NCBI RefSeq assembly: GCF_900100345.1
Contig: NZ_FMTT01000009.1
Location: 1-64,000, forward strand
Length of the DNA stretch: 64,000 bases
Reading direction: 5' to 3'
Origin: Paenibacillus tianmuensis
GTDB lineage: Bacteria > Bacillota > Bacilli > Paenibacillales > NBRC-103111
The notes under the pieces are model-generated. The model had not been told where the DNA came from, searched no databases, and saw only the letters and a list, made by a program, of their open reading frames with translations. Made by a program: the position numbers and the translations under genes. Of this stretch, positions 12,747-55,677 are shown in pieces (the first letter of the stretch is position 1; the number at the start of each line of letters is the position of its first letter).

Positions 12747-12773
12747 TTAGCACTCACTAACACGGAGTGCTAA
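12747..12773 (+). promoter_or_regulatory. CIRCE operator (HrcA binding site)
   Basis: TTAGCACTC-N9-GAGTGCTAA, a perfect match to the known CIRCE consensus that HrcA binds to repress heat-shock operons. It lies 268 nt upstream of hrcA, leaving room for the structured leader in between. Confidence 0.97.
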
Positions 12774-12870
12774 CGAAAGAGCGGTTTGAATGTTAAGATA
12801 CAAGGCGAGCGAGGTATGCCCTGGTTTATTTCTTTTAAATATATTTGTTTTTCGGTAAAAAGCTTTTGAC

Positions 12871-13034
12871 GGAGGAAAGAACTGCAGTCGGAGAGTCTAC
12901 GTGCCGCCTTTGAACTCGGGTTCTTACCGACAGGTAAGTTCAATTGGAACCCGAGTTCAACAGCGGCCGGAGGCTGCAGTTCCTTTCACGCAGTCAATTC
13001 CCTTTTCTCCCGAAAAACCTCCAAAGCAAGGGGG
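12871..13034 (+). promoter_or_regulatory. candidate structured leader RNA before hrcA (copy 1)
   Basis: Between CIRCE and hrcA lies a multi-helix leader. The outer stem is GGAGG (12871-12875)/CCTCC (13018-13022). The second is GAACTGCAG (12879-12887)/CTGCAGTTC (12974-12982). The inner stem is GCCGC/GCGGC plus a 14-bp helix (12910-12923/12947-12960), capped by CTTACC/GGTAAG. The blocks ACGTGCCGCCTTTGAA (12899-12914) and AGCGGCCGGAGGC (12962-12974) recur before phoH, with compensated changes in the 14-bp helix. CCTCC can instead pair with the GGGGG of the hrcA ribosome-binding site (13030-13034), suggesting translational control. I do not recognise the family. Confidence 0.65.
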
Positions 13035-13041
13035 ACTTGGT

Positions 13042-14073
13042 GTGCTAACCGAACGACAACGTCATATTTTAAGCGCCATCGTCGATGATTACATCCGTTC
13101 TGCGGAGCCGGTCGGCTCCCGCAGCATATCCAAGCGCGGCAACGTGGGATTCAGCCCCGCCACCATCCGCAACGAAATGTCCGACCTGGAGGAAATGGGC
13201 TTTCTGGAGCAGCCGCACACGTCGGCTGGCCGGATTCCTTCCCACAAGGGCTACCGATATTACGTCGATCATCTGATGCATTATATCCAGCTTCCTGTTC
13301 AGGATGTCGACATGCTCAAGCAGTTTTTTTCCGAAAAAATGCAGGAGATGGAACGTACCATCCAGCATGTGGCGCAAATTTTGTCTCAACTGACGAACTA
13401 TACGTCCATCGTCATGGGACCGGAGATGCTGGGCACGACGATGAAGCATTTGCAAATCGTTCCGCTCAACGAGCGGACGGCTGTCGCGATTATCGTGACC
13501 AATACCGGACAGGTGGAGAACAAGACCGTCACGATTCCCGAAGGCGTTCCGATGTCGGAGATCGAGAAGTTCGTCAACCTGCTCAATGCCCGGCTCAAAA
13601 ACGTGCCGTTGCTTCATTTCAAGTCGAAGCTGTACACGGAGATCGCCTCGGAGCTGAGCAGCTACGTCTCCGGTTACGAAGAGCTGCTGCTCATGCTGGA
13701 TCATGTGATGGACCGCGGAGAGGAAGAGCGGATTTTCCTTGGCGGCACGACGAACATGCTGACGCAGCCCGAGTTCAAGGATGTCGATAAAGTAAAAAGC
13801 ATTCTGGACTTGCTCGCCGAAGGGCCAAAGCTGGTGCAGCTGTTTGACGGAACCGGCGAAACGAACGGGATACAGGTGCGGATCGGCAGCGAGAACAAGC
13901 TGGAAGCCGTGAACGATTGCAGTCTGATCACCGCTTCGTATTCGATAGACGGGCAACTGCTCGGGACGATCGGCATCCTTGGACCGACGCGGATGGATTA
14001 CGGTAAAGTCATCAAGCTGCTCGAGCATTTGACGAAAGATTTGAATCAGTTGATGGGGCGTTGGTACAAATGA
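13042..14073 (+). CDS. hrcA: heat-inducible transcription repressor HrcA
   Basis: Repressor of the class I heat-shock genes; binds CIRCE and depends on GroEL for activity in B. subtilis. The 343-residue product has an N-terminal winged helix ([38 protein letters not shown]) and the family block [18 protein letters not shown]. The frame is open 47 codons upstream, but GTG 13042 with AAGGGGGA 6 nt before it gives the exact family length. It ends by overlapping the chaperonin start (ATGA), so the two are translationally coupled. Confidence 0.97.
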
Positions 14074-15608
14074 GCCAAATCAAGCCGACAGGCCAGGAAG
14101 GCGAAGAGGCGTTTGCCACGCTGCGGAACAACGCGAATGCGATCCGCGCCATTTGCTCCGCGGTGGAAGGGACCCTCGGACCGAAGGGGCTCGATACGAT
14201 GCTGGTCGGGACGCAGGGGGAAGTCGTCATTACGAATGACGGCGTGACTATTTTGGAAAAGATGGACGTCACCCACCCCGCCGCGAGATTGCTCATTCAA
14301 GTCGCCCGTTCCCAGCAGCATCAAGTCGGGGACGGCACGACGACGGCTACCGTGCTGGCTGGCGCATTGGTCGCCGAAGGCGTGGCGCAGGTCACGCGGG
14401 GCGTACCGGTGGCGAAGGTCGTCCGCGGGGTGCAGGACGGCGTGGCCGCGGCGCTGGAGTCGCTGGCCCGCCGGGCGCGCCCGCTGGAAGGAATGAGCGA
14501 TCCTCTGCTGTACCGGATCGCGTACGTTGCCGGGCGGGAGCACGCCGACCTCGCCAAGCTGATTGTCGAAGGAGCGAAGCGTCTCGGCCCGGCGAAGCTG
14601 CGGGAGCCGCACTTCCGCTTCTCCGACGTCGTGATGTCGCACGGAAAAGCGGCGAACGAAGTGTGGCCAGGCCTGTTGATTAACAAAAAGCCGGCCAATG
14701 CCCAGCTTGATTTTCCTCCGGATACGGCGCAGGTGCTGCTGTTCCAGGATGCGTTCGAGCCGGAGACGGTCGATGAAGAAGCGCTCATGACCGATGCAGG
14801 CTTCCACAAGCAGACGCAGCTGCGGGAGCAGTTCCGCGCCCTCTTGGAGAAGCTCGTCGAGCTGCGCGTCGGCTTCGTGGCCTCGGAACGGGGCGTCGAC
14901 CCCGATGCGGAGCAGTTTTGCACCGACCATGGGATCATGGTGCTGCAGCGCCTGCCGCGGGCGGAGCTGCGCCGCATCGCCGAATACACCGGTGCGCGGC
15001 CGATCCGCCGCAGCGGATTGCGCAAGCCCGCCTCGGAGCTGGCGGGCTATCTCGGCTTCGCCGGGCACGTCGCTTATGACGAGCGGCTGGAGAGCGTGCG
15101 GATGGCCGAAGGCAAAGGCCGTACGCAAGTATCCATCGTCGTGGGCGCCAGCACGAGCGAGGTGGTCGGCGAGCGGCTGCGCATCGCCCGCGACGCGGCT
15201 TCAAGCGTGCAGGCCGCGCTGCGCGGCGGCTGCCTGCCCGGCGGCGGGGCGTCCGAAATGGCCGTCGCCCACGAGCTTGACCGCCACCGGGAGACGGTGC
15301 AGGGCATGGAAGGCTTCGGCATTGCCGCCGTCGCACAGGCGCTGCGCAAGCCGCTGGCCCAAATCGTCGTGAACGCGGGCTACAACCCTCTGGAGAAAGT
15401 CGAAGAGGTGAAAGCGGCGCAGATCGCTTCCAGCAACGATGCGCTCGGTATCGACTGCGATACCGGAAGCGTCGCGGATATGATGGCCGCCGGCGTCGTC
15501 GACCCGGCGGAGGTGAAGCTGCATGCGCTGCGGGCTGCCGGCGAGGTGGCATGCGCGGTTCTTCGCATCCACACGGTCATTAAGATGCGCCCGCGCACGG
15601 AAGAGTAG
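14070..15608 (+). CDS. group III (archaeal-like) chaperonin
   Basis: 512-residue chaperonin of thermosome/CCT type, not GroEL. Nucleotide-binding motifs are LGPKG (36-40), NDGVT (56-60), GDGTT (87-91), a likely catalytic Asp at 375 (RDAASSV) and GGGASE (391-396). The C-terminal block [18 protein letters not shown] resembles archaeal thermosomes. Such bacterial group III chaperonins are described from Firmicutes such as Carboxydothermus, next to dnaK operon genes, and are thought to form a ring with a built-in lid. Its start overlaps the hrcA stop, and grpE follows, so it is under CIRCE control. Confidence 0.9.
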
Positions 15609-53238: not shown

Positions 53239-54420
53239 GTGAAATCTTCGTATATCCAACGCCTGCGAGGCTTTGTTCGGGTCGAAGTAAAAGGCGGGCA
53301 GCTCGAGAAGCTGCTGAACCGTATGACGGAGCGGCAGATGGCTATCTGGGACATCCAGTATGCGGCGCTAAATAAAGCCGAGCTGTCGATCACGATCCGC
53401 GACTTTTTCCGGCTTCGCCCGCTATTGAAGGAGACAGGCTCTCGCACTCGTATTCGCCAGAAACAGGGATTTCCTTTTTGGATAAACAAGCTGGAGAAAC
53501 GCAAATTTTTTGCTCTGGGCGTACTTGCTTTTGTTATCGGAATCTATGTGCTGTCCTCGCTCGTATGGCATGTTCGCGTAGAAGGCAACGAGAAGCTGAG
53601 CCAGGGGCAGGTCCTGCAAGCCGCGAAGCAGCAAGGCATTTACAAGCTGCAGTGGAAATTCCGCTTGAAAGACCCCGCCGAGCTGTCCCGGGCGCTGCAG
53701 CGGGAGCTGCCGGGCACCGCTTGGGTCGGTGTGGAGGTAAGCGGGACGCATGTGATTATTAAGGTCGTCGAATCGACCGTGCCCGATACACCGCCGCTCC
53801 TTAGCCCGAGGCATCTGGTCGCTTCCAAGAGCGCATTGGTCACCGAAATTTTCGCCGAAAAAGGCAGGCCGCTTGTTAAGCCGAATACGTATGTACGCAA
53901 AGGAGACGTATTGATATCCGGCATCATCGGCGTCGAGGCGAACCAGCAGAGCGTTGTCGCCGCGGGAAAGGTCAAGGGAATTGTGTGGTACAAGCCGACC
54001 GTCGAAGTGCCGCTTACGCTCCAGTACAAGACCTATACCGGCGAAACGAAAAACCGCTCGTACCTCGTCTTTGGCAGCCGCGGCCTTCAGCTAAGCGGCT
54101 ACGGGGAAATTCCGTTTGAGCAGTACGAAACGGTCCCCGAACGGAAAACGCTCAGCTGGCGGGGCTACACGCTCCCGATCGGATGGCTCAGCGAAAAGCT
54201 GCTGGAGGTGCAGATCGTCGAGCAGACGGTTGACCCGAAGGAAGCCTCGGAGCTCGGTATCGAGCAGGCCAAAGCGCAAATTTTGTCGGCGTCGGGCAGC
54301 GATTCGCGTATCGTTTCGGAAAAAATTTTGCATGAAAAGGCGGAGAATGGTAAAGTTTATATGGAAGTACTTTTGGAAGTGGAAGAACCGATCGCAACCG
54401 AGCAACCGATCGTCCCATAA
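53239..54420 (+). CDS. yqfD: sporulation protein YqfD
   Basis: 393-residue membrane protein of sporulation stage IV. A soluble N-terminal domain (1-80) is followed by one membrane helix (FFALGVLAFVIGIYVLSSLVW, about 90-110). The large extracytoplasmic part includes VRVEGNEKLSQGQVLQAAKQQG, a POTRA-like segment, and KGDVLISGIIG. The start is GTG 53239 with GGAAAGGAGA 8-9 nt upstream. It is 21 nt after yqfC, in the same SigE unit. Confidence 0.93.
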   Translation: MKSSYIQRLRGFVRVEVKGGQLEKLLNRMTERQMAIWDIQYAALNKAELSITIRDFFRLRPLLKETGSRTRIRQKQGFPFWINKLEKRKFFALGVLAFVIGIYVLSSLVWHVRVEGNEKLSQGQVLQAAKQQGIYKLQWKFRLKDPAELSRALQRELPGTAWVGVEVSGTHVIIKVVESTVPDTPPLLSPRHLVASKSALVTEIFAEKGRPLVKPNTYVRKGDVLISGIIGVEANQQSVVAAGKVKGIVWYKPTVEVPLTLQYKTYTGETKNRSYLVFGSRGLQLSGYGEIPFEQYETVPERKTLSWRGYTLPIGWLSEKLLEVQIVEQTVDPKEASELGIEQAKAQILSASGSDSRIVSEKILHEKAENGKVYMEVLLEVEEPIATEQPIVP

Positions 54421-54478
54421 AGACTACTGACGGAGCGGTTTACGGCCGGAAGGTTTTTTATTCATCAACAGCAGTGCG

Positions 54479-54699
54479 GGCGAAGAGCTGCACATTGCTG
54501 CCGTAGCGTATGCTTTCGAAGCAGTTCTCCTTACGGAAAACTTGGAGTTTACGTGCCGCCTTTGAATTCGGATTCTCCCCGATCATTTATATATTCATAG
54601 AATCCGAATTCAAGAGCGGCCGGAGGCAGCAACGTCTTGCTCGCAGCTTCGCGCCACTTGGGTGAATGAATCGCCTTCCCGCCGAAAACCCGGAGGAGA
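54479..54699 (+). promoter_or_regulatory. candidate structured leader RNA before phoH (copy 2)
   Basis: Second copy of the element found before hrcA. Outer helix: GCGAAG-AG-CTGC (54480-54491) with GCAG-CTTCGC (54643-54652). Second helix: TTGCTGCC (54495-54502)/GGCAGCAA (54625-54632). Core: ACGTGCCGCCTTTGAA (54551-54566), a 14-bp stem (54562-54575/54600-54613) and AGCGGCCGGAGGC (54615-54627). The 14-bp stem differs from copy 1 at two positions, both compensated. CCTTC (54674-54678) can pair with the GGAGG of the phoH ribosome-binding site. No promoter is evident in 54421-54478, so it may be intercistronic. Confidence 0.65.
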
Positions 54700-54714
54700 G
54701 ATTAAGCCCTGTAC

Positions 54715-55677
54715 ATGGATCAAGAGACCACCGTAAAAGTCAGACTCAAAAATACGGCCGAAGCCCTCGCGCTCTTTGGGCCGCAGGACAAATTCCTGCA
54801 CCTGATCGAACAGGATACGCAGGCCGCCATCTTTACCCGCGAGGAAGAGATCGTCATCCAGGGTCAAGCTGCCGATACGGCGCGCCTTGAGCAGCTGTTC
54901 ACCGTGCTGCTGGAGCTGGTCCGCAACCAATATGCACTGACGGAGCGGGATATTCATTACGCGATTGACCTGGCCAAAGAGATGAAGGCCGATCAACTGC
55001 TCGATTTGTTTAAAGGCGAAATCGCCCATACCCACAAAGGCAAGCCGATTCGCATCAAGACGATCGGGCAGAAGCAGTATGTCAACGAAATTAAGAAAAA
55101 AGATATCGTCTTCGGGATCGGACCGGCCGGCACGGGCAAAACGTACATCGCCGTCGTGCTCGCCGTCTCCGCGCTCAAGGAAGGCAAAGTGAAGCGGATC
55201 GTACTGACGAGACCTGCGGTCGAAGCGGGCGAGAGCCTCGGCTTTTTGCCCGGCGACCTGCAGGAAAAGGTTGACCCTTATTTGCGTCCATTGTATGATG
55301 CTCTTAACGACGTGCTCGGGCCGGAGCAGGTGCTCAAATCGCTGGAGCGCGGCCTCATCGAGATCGCCCCGCTCGCCTATATGCGCGGCCGGACGCTCGA
55401 CGATTCGTTCATTATTTTGGACGAAGCACAAAATACGACGCCGGAACAGATGAAGATGTTTTTGACGCGCCTCGGATTCGGATCGAAGATGGTCATCACC
55501 GGCGATGTGACGCAGATCGACCTCCCGCGGGGCAAATCATCGGGGCTGGTGGAGGTGCAGCGCATCCTTGCGAACATTGAAGAGCTTGGTTTTATCCAGT
55601 TTGCCGAGCAGGACGTTGTCAGACATTCATTGGTGCAAAAAATCATCATGGCCTATAATGAGGACAAAGAAGGCTGA
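54715..55677 (+). CDS. phoH: PhoH family ATPase
   Basis: 320-residue P-loop ATPase linked in other bacteria to RNA metabolism; YbeY follows it in many genomes. Walker A GPAGTGKT is at residues 136-143. VLTRPAVEAGESLGFLPG and the Walker B block FIILDEAQNTTPEQ are typical. The ATG at 54715 is 15 nt from GGAGGAGAG, an unusually long gap; CTG 54709 would fit better (9 nt), and a stop at 54703 excludes anything further upstream. Transcription with pgpH, ybeY and dgkA is likely. Confidence 0.95.
   Translation: MDQETTVKVRLKNTAEALALFGPQDKFLHLIEQDTQAAIFTREEEIVIQGQAADTARLEQLFTVLLELVRNQYALTERDIHYAIDLAKEMKADQLLDLFKGEIAHTHKGKPIRIKTIGQKQYVNEIKKKDIVFGIGPAGTGKTYIAVVLAVSALKEGKVKRIVLTRPAVEAGESLGFLPGDLQEKVDPYLRPLYDALNDVLGPEQVLKSLERGLIEIAPLAYMRGRTLDDSFIILDEAQNTTPEQMKMFLTRLGFGSKMVITGDVTQIDLPRGKSSGLVEVQRILANIEELGFIQFAEQDVVRHSLVQKIIMAYNEDKEG

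Follow-up and report, generated by a model that had tools for sequence, protein, structure and literature searches.

A probable MITE-like family of rod-shaped hairpin repeats in Paenibacillus tianmuensis and its relatives

Why do the regions upstream of hrcA and phoH in Paenibacillus tianmuensis carry similar long hairpins? The question arises from a stretch of 64,000 nucleotides (contig NZ_FMTT01000009.1, positions 1 to 64,000), called the window here, in which a first-pass annotation had read the two hairpins as copies of a structured leader and not as a mobile repeat. Our answer is different. We estimate a probability of about 70% that they belong to a non-autonomous, MITE-like interspersed repeat family, each member being a single imperfect rod, whose insertion is targeted to hairpins and whose sense copies are retained as mRNA. 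The family, its fold, its intergenic placement, its presence and absence at given loci, the subfamilies with shared ends and the duplicated flanking hairpins were all observed directly.

The two window copies resemble each other much as was first described. The sequence ACGTGCCGCCTTTGAA is identical in both, and CAGCGGCCGGAGGC at hrcA agrees with GAGCGGCCGGAGGC at phoH in 13 of 14 bases. Each copy has a perfect 14-bp stem (TTGAACTCGGGTTC/GAACCCGAGTTCAA at hrcA, TTGAATTCGGATTC/GAATCCGAATTCAA at phoH), and just two pairs distinguish the stems, one changed from C-G to T-A and the other from G-C to A-T, both compensated. Outer helices are found in both copies with different sequence in each. Taken by itself, a shared 16-mer has no significance in 64 kb (about 0.5 expected by our own estimate); homology is argued from the second motif together with the spacing and the stem, and beyond that from the homologues described below. 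When the intergenic regions were folded, each gave one long rod (-84.9 and -116.6 kcal/mol for the two regions), with one outer helix more than had been noticed before. The regions first given, 12871-13034 and 54479-54699, were the right ones, while their exact limits were slightly off: by the fold, the rods extend over about 12847-13018 and 54437-54690.

At the hrcA locus, an inverted repeat TTAGCACTC-N9-GAGTGCTAA at 12747..12773 (+), which we take to be the CIRCE operator, precedes the element, so the element lies within the leader transcribed from that control region. The operator is visible in 22 of 25 orthologous upstream stretches, and not in the part viewed of G007, G019 and G014. On the same strand, the outermost helix P1 has its 5' arm GTTTTTCGG at 12847..12855, located by fold and coordinates, and its 3' arm CCGAAAAAC at 13010..13018, by sequence and fold. 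The covariance-model match covers 12861..13010 (+; 140.5 bits, E 1.9e-37), this copy being one of the ten sequences that built the model scoring it. Within it, the alignment gives a conserved inner core TGCCGCCTTTGAA ... AGCGGCCGGAGGC at 12902..12974 (+), which encloses the variable 14-bp stem and the terminal loop TTACC..GTTCAAT. After the 3' arm of P1, AGGGGG at 13029-13034 is the likely ribosome-binding site of hrcA (13042..14073, +), which likely starts with GTG at 13042; a longer open reading frame from 12901 crosses the element, and its start is probably not the true one. Two other features of this locus can be recorded. The window encodes at 14070-15608 (+), between hrcA and grpE, a Cpn60/TCP-1 protein (Pfam E 1e-106) that scores 269 bits with the NCBIfam thermosome model vs 176 with GroEL, none reaching the cut-off; its best PDB match after a reconstructed ancestral protein is 5x9u, 'Thermosome, alpha subunit' (8e-124), and the product resembles a Group III chaperonin of archaeal type within the dnaK operon. 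In G012 (G012:C1:3172662-3173295), hrcA is apparently split into two frames, by a frameshift or a sequencing error.

The phoH copy lies on the forward strand between yqfD (53239-54420), the upstream neighbour of phoH, and phoH itself, an open reading frame at 54715..55677 (+). Its outermost helix P1 has the 5' arm GGTTTACGGCCGGAAGG at 54437..54453 (+), placed by the fold and by orthologue L100, and the 3' arm CCTTCCCGCCGAAAACC at 54674..54690 (+), placed by the fold. The ribosome-binding site region CGGAGGAGAG at 54691-54700 (+) follows directly. The model match is at 54521..54663 (+; 80.2 bits, E 1.8e-19), where part of the 5' side is displaced by a 37-nt hairpin insert in the 5' internal loop at 54507..54543 (+), recognised by comparison with orthologues, some of which are without it. 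This insert belongs to a type of double hairpin of 36-40 nt (TATGCTTTCGAAGCAGTTTTCCTTACGGAAAAC type), which also occurs, at nearly the same position in the 5' internal loop, in the hrcA copies of G024, G001 and G009 and in the phoH copies of G015, G019 and G007, so that two loci carry it, each in its own set of genomes.

Is the element already known? The first-pass annotation had recognised no known family in it, and a scan of the window with Rfam 15 at gathering thresholds indeed returned no match. An E-value scan of 12 loci gave sub-threshold matches only, the best (E 0.04) being to a miRNA hairpin family, and on these two scans a known Rfam family was rejected as an explanation. No paper describing the Paenibacillus hairpin family was found in searches of an open-access library, and a term search of the accessible text of PMC2267715 gave no mention of Paenibacillus. 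The family is apparently new, while its kind (BOX, bcr, NEMIS-like) is already known.

A covariance model was built from ten aligned copies with the structure assigned by hand. In this alignment 19 of 36 pairs have changes on both sides and 91% of cells pair, which none of 500 shuffles reached. In a second model of 78 rows, including 3 partial reverse-strand rows, the numbers rise to 31 of 36 pairs and 95% of cells, again with none of 500 shuffles. The covariation thus bears out the early suggestion of selection on a single-strand fold. From outside to inside, the rod consists of the locus-specific helix P1; P2; an internal loop around GCGGAG/CGCAG; P3; an asymmetric internal loop GGAGAGTTTACGT/CGGA; P4 (GCCGC/GCGGC); a mismatch; and P5, a variable stem usually starting TTTGAA, with a terminal loop TTACC...TTCAAT in many copies. 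The stems change their sequence yet remain paired, and the more conserved letters are in the internal loops. The element measures about 180-220 nt (type-B units mostly about 206-211 nt) and the model 149-150 nt. In 123 of 151 copies, outermost helices that extend beyond the model score above the 95% control, in a search that also covers the model's own outer 8 and 18 nt and in which orthologues are not independent. In the element's own strand, G-U pairs exceed A-C mismatches by 109 to 30 distinct locus-by-pair events (one fixed T-G pair excluded), which points to a single-stranded, strand-specific fold, although RNA-based hit selection may have added part of this preference. The same preference is seen where the element is antisense to its neighbour genes (17:3), which counts against a pure mRNA role.

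How widely is the family distributed? Searching with the exact core pattern turns up a third copy in the window's genome, between two facing genes, and matches in 11 of 60 relatives (own genome included), all of the same genus; with 3 own-genome copies the pattern badly under-counts the family and was given up as a detector. With the model, the own genome has at least 25 matches, made up of 18 distinct places and 7 reverse-strand self-matches; since 150 of 2910 candidates were scored, the number of distinct copies is at least 18. They adjoin varied genes. One, for example, lies 3' of a pyruvate-oxidase-type gene and faces a terC-like gene (gene likeness judged by eye). All 25 genomes of the genus, own included, have matches, from 1 to 115 each with reverse-strand self-matches counted. 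The second model matched at least 83 of 104 genomes in at least 20 of 22 genera of the family, and at least 28 of 299 genomes in a class-wide sample, these family-wide and class-wide counts being lower bounds with 29 and 10 candidates scored per genome. Besides the own genome, the 28 comprise 26 genomes from a single further family of the same order and G144 from another order. By pattern, the element type of this second family occurs in eight named records, seven of Paenibacillus and one of a Paenibacillaceae MAG, so we take the second family to be Paenibacillus proper. Among the four of five G144 copies that were read, L277 and L317 keep GGAGGGTTTA, CCGCCTTTA, TCAAT and AAGAGCGGCCG, L318 is without TCAAT, and two of the four motifs are different in L319.

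Is the element a fixed part of the loci where it stands? Upstream of hrcA, a model match is present in 11 of the 25 genus genomes; G015 has only a remnant, and the other 13 are without it, with a leader of 80-194 nt. In G007 and G019, a type-B copy appears by eye to lie within the shell of an older copy. Upstream of phoH, the match is present in 13 of 25 genomes and absent in 12, and among seven of the twelve empty sites that were folded, five have a simple hairpin before the ribosome-binding site. In G011, the 3' arm of this hairpin together with the Shine-Dalgarno region is identical to the window's over 24 letters. These plain hairpins and the G011 identity suggest that a host hairpin may hold the element in its loop; conversely, the G011 site may be a deletion product. 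No obvious pre-existing hairpin was seen by eye at hrcA sites without the element.

Subfamilies A, B and C are each found again at loci that have nothing to do with one another. Between loci, the 11 best pairs share 83-94% identity over 154-217 nt, and by eye their flanks are unlike beyond the element ends. Terminal inverted repeats, type-B ends (T/G/C)TGTTGAGAAAGTGG and the complement, are found with at most 2 mismatches at the 20 type-B copies fetched; type-A ends are clear in L171 and degenerate in L120 and L122, and in older copies, including both window copies, subfamily ends are not clearly visible. Counted genome-wide per strand (at most 2 mismatches), the type-B end TTGTTGAGAAAGTGG occurs 48+57 times in G024, 48+50 in G005 and 27+32 in G004, vs 10+8, 5+10 and 12+9 for a reversed-pattern control; G007 has 9+13 vs 4+10, and in G000 and G015 the end is at control level only.

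What does insertion do to the target? At one convergent locus, a terminator-like hairpin is single in G019 and stands on both sides of an extra element in G024, G004 and G005; comparison of an empty with filled sites gives a single terminator in L157 and a doubled one in L120, L122 and L142. Target-site duplications like those of MITEs flank 14 of 20 recent type-B copies, as direct repeats scoring 25-68 against a cross-locus control maximum of 18; the other six have none above control. The repeats are about 14-34 bp long and, by eye, mostly hairpin-forming, terminator-like palindromes. In a mixed set of 151 mostly older copies, direct repeats exceed the 99% control in five, all of types A and B, and the best repeats at the hrcA and phoH window copies score 19 and 17, where the 95% control stands at 20. 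These recent subfamilies, which stand at unrelated places with repeats at their ends and duplicated target sites, speak against the idea of a leader as opposed to a mobile repeat.

Some smaller observations concern single copies and loci. L366 (G004:C10:180577-180636), among the 20 type-B copies, is a 60-nt remnant of two type-B ends only, as though its middle part had been lost. A nested hairpin, CCCCGCAAAGTA...ACTTTG(C/T)GGGG, about 52 nt long, is found in or beside type-B copies at L335, L341, L342, L357, L358 and L361 (L335 and L361 being the same place), as repeats within repeats. Close pairs of elements, inverted or direct, are seen at L120, L122, L142 and L149, at G365:C1:784719-785081 and at G299:C1:4419833-4420196.

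The position of the element relative to genes was studied in 151 full-length copies, drawn from the best-scoring of at most 884 genus matches (a sum with reverse-strand self-matches counted) together with the 18 of the own genome, reverse-strand and partial rows being excluded. No copy extends further than 30 nt into a called gene, 30 nt being the tolerance used with our own codon-score gene caller; like a MITE, the element has no coding capacity. Sense copies between co-directional genes number 110; a further 22 copies are antisense, 17 convergent and 1 divergent, and 1 is at a contig edge. When they are collapsed into 44 locus groups, 28 are sense, 9 antisense, 6 convergent and 1 divergent (28 vs 9, p 0.003). 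In the 28 sense groups the distance from the model end to the next start codon has a median of about 50 nt, and in 16 it is within 60 nt. With 44 locus groups among 151 copies, the family has no stable tie to one gene or pathway. Scatter as a mobile repeat, which the first-pass annotation had named as evidence against its reading, is what is seen, although the copies are not placed at random. Among the 20 type-B copies, 10 stand between convergent genes, 6 are sense, 1 is antisense and 1 divergent, and 2 are at edges, so recent copies are without the operon placement of older ones.

The sense bias could in part be a consequence of replication direction. In G299, a single-contig genome of the second family, 46 of 60 matches comprise 33 sense, 6 antisense, 5 convergent, 1 divergent and 1 edge case. 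With the origin at base 1, there are 29 sense and 4 antisense for leading genes and 4 and 2 for lagging genes (p 0.22), in a sample with few lagging cases that was chosen to include twelve matches seemingly against replication.

Then is the rod maintained after insertion? Among orthologues at the same locus, 16 groups have 208 compensated Watson-Crick types and 65 G-U types vs 102 broken, the orthologues in this count not being independent of one another. Stems were also compared pairwise, excluding one of the 16 groups that mixes types A and B; the sequence pairs are not independent and non-sense loci are few. At 85-93% identity, sense loci have 79 stems kept and 33 broken, other loci 39 and 58. 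At 70-85% identity the counts are 1355 and 417 vs 86 and 48, and at 93% identity or more, 33 and 31 vs 8 and 13, with little difference. The better retention in sense loci may be read as selection on the rod within mRNA after insertion.

Several other explanations should be weighed against this evidence. A regulatory leader or riboswitch specific to hrcA and phoH would suit the two window copies, which are both sense and end shortly upstream of a ribosome-binding site, but the element is matched in only about half of the genus genomes at either gene, at least 16 further own-genome copies adjoin other genes, and recent copies have target duplications. Copy distribution largely rules this reading out, and we hold it to be very improbable. 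Could the copies instead form a post-transcriptional regulon, as sites for one RNA-binding protein over many housekeeping operons? The GGA-bearing internal loops and the terminal loop are conserved across copies, and pairing is kept at orthologous loci through many double changes. However, match numbers that differ so widely within one genus (1 to 115, depending on the species), the varied neighbour genes and the patchy presence at hrcA and phoH are hard to reconcile with such a regulon, which we think quite unlikely. The put RNAs of HK022 and the EAR element are models for how an antitermination RNA would work, and the element might be a mobile cis-acting RNA of this sort, with conserved internal loops that bind the transcription machinery and relieve polarity at terminators or in operons. 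Its sense bias in operons, its strongly conserved unpaired motifs and its insertion at terminator-like hairpins all fit, but no Rfam match means none to EAR, and convergent gene pairs are the main setting of recent copies (10 of 20), where antitermination would serve no evident purpose. This also seems unlikely.

A different transposition system might be considered as well, in which the repeat is a REP element moved by a RAYT or another Y1 transposase of the IS200/IS605 type. The element is palindromic, intergenic and strand-specific in its wobble, and GGAG/GTAG variants adjoin the stem, which we liken, as an assumption, to the RAYT tag motif. On the other side, Y1_Tnp (PF01797) is present in 12 of 25 genus genomes and is at zero in G004, G005 and G019 despite 64, 81 and 41 element matches, and hairpin-length target duplications are not expected from Y1 chemistry. 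With Y1_Tnp absent from three copy-rich genomes and not tracking copy number, this candidate was rejected as hardly credible. As for the Y1_Tnp matches themselves, the own genome (G000) has 15, many of them fragments or with stops, G015 has 14 and the other 23 genomes 0-7. Doubtful, though deserving some weight, is a mobile element that carries a conserved functional RNA, whose loops would bind a host factor of the transcription or decay machinery and so let it enter terminators and settle within operons without harm or even to some use, with hundreds of copies co-opted for control of mRNA in Paenibacillus and its relatives.

How would a MITE-like repeat, the reading we prefer, arrive and stay? 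The branch of the IS1272 model that duplicates a whole hairpin (in the available part of PMC5678879) leads us to propose a hairpin-recognising transposase acting in trans. The insertion sites of such an enzyme would be terminators and hairpins between cistrons. If the ends join at the 5' foot, the whole target hairpin would be duplicated; if they join in the loop, the arms of the host hairpin would become the outermost helix, possibly so at phoH. Judged by end spacing, the 12 end-bearing loci gave no long unit that could be an autonomous copy, and no transposase for the family was identified in a genome-wide search with Y1_Tnp as the one transposase family covered. Sense, co-transcribed copies might then be retained as structured mRNA, the rod filling the intergenic gap and often ending just before the ribosome-binding site. 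There, to judge from sequence, the rod would most likely be a barrier to exonuclease decay or a processing site, and in this way it might set the expression of the downstream cistron.

How does the family compare with known repeats? BOX is modular, built of boxA, boxB and boxC, and by description this sets it apart from the Paenibacillus element, which is one rod with conserved internal loops. In the available part of PMC3049150, BOX, RUP and SPRITE of Streptococcus pneumoniae are small interspersed structured repeats, co-transcribed with their neighbours and judged parasitic; BOX, with its extensive secondary structure, resembles the Paenibacillus family in these respects. According to the same part, BOX is almost absent from other streptococci, whereas the Paenibacillus family is matched in at least 20 genera of one family plus others; whole-hairpin target duplication is a further difference. 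The bcr1-bcr18 repeats of the Bacillus cereus group are intergenic, in UTRs and operon gaps, and transcribed along with adjacent genes, bcr3 being correlated with mRNA decay rate, and in the portion of PMC3446304 at hand the MITE-like families (bcr1-3) are distinct from those with conserved structure (bcr10, bcr18). By description, the Paenibacillus family, of another lineage, differs in combining both properties. NEMIS, ERIC/YPAL, EFAR and RUP are MITEs that are often beside coding sequences, transcribed and influence their neighbours (PMC3733652, in part); they are similarly MITE-like, in other bacteria and with other sequences, again as compared by description.

The closest likeness in insertion is to IS1272 and IS1182-type elements, whose targets are inverted repeats or stem-loops (available part of PMC5678879). 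A branch of the IS1272 model duplicates the whole target stem-loop when the ends join at its 5' foot, and a whole stem-loop is duplicated at many of our 14 direct-repeat copies. IS1272 encodes a transposase, and its new insertions, as far as that part of the paper goes, replaced the stem-loop without duplication; the Paenibacillus element encodes no transposase, and its likeness to IS1182/IS1272 is in stem-loop targeting alone.

What does the family mean for these bacteria? Rfam misses a structured repeat that is matched in the majority of genomes sampled from the window's family and in many from a second family, so intergenic regions there can be mistaken for gene-specific leaders. The mix of strong fold conservation and hairpin-directed insertion is unusual, and it joins two topics that are usually separate, a mobile repeat selected for its single-strand fold and an insertion that duplicates the target hairpin, the latter being a branch drawn in the IS1272 model (PMC5678879, available part) and apparently encountered here. 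Orthologous loci with and without the element make an effect on mRNA directly testable. If the element does carry a functional RNA, it would be a transposon with an RNA structure, and not a protein, as its cargo.
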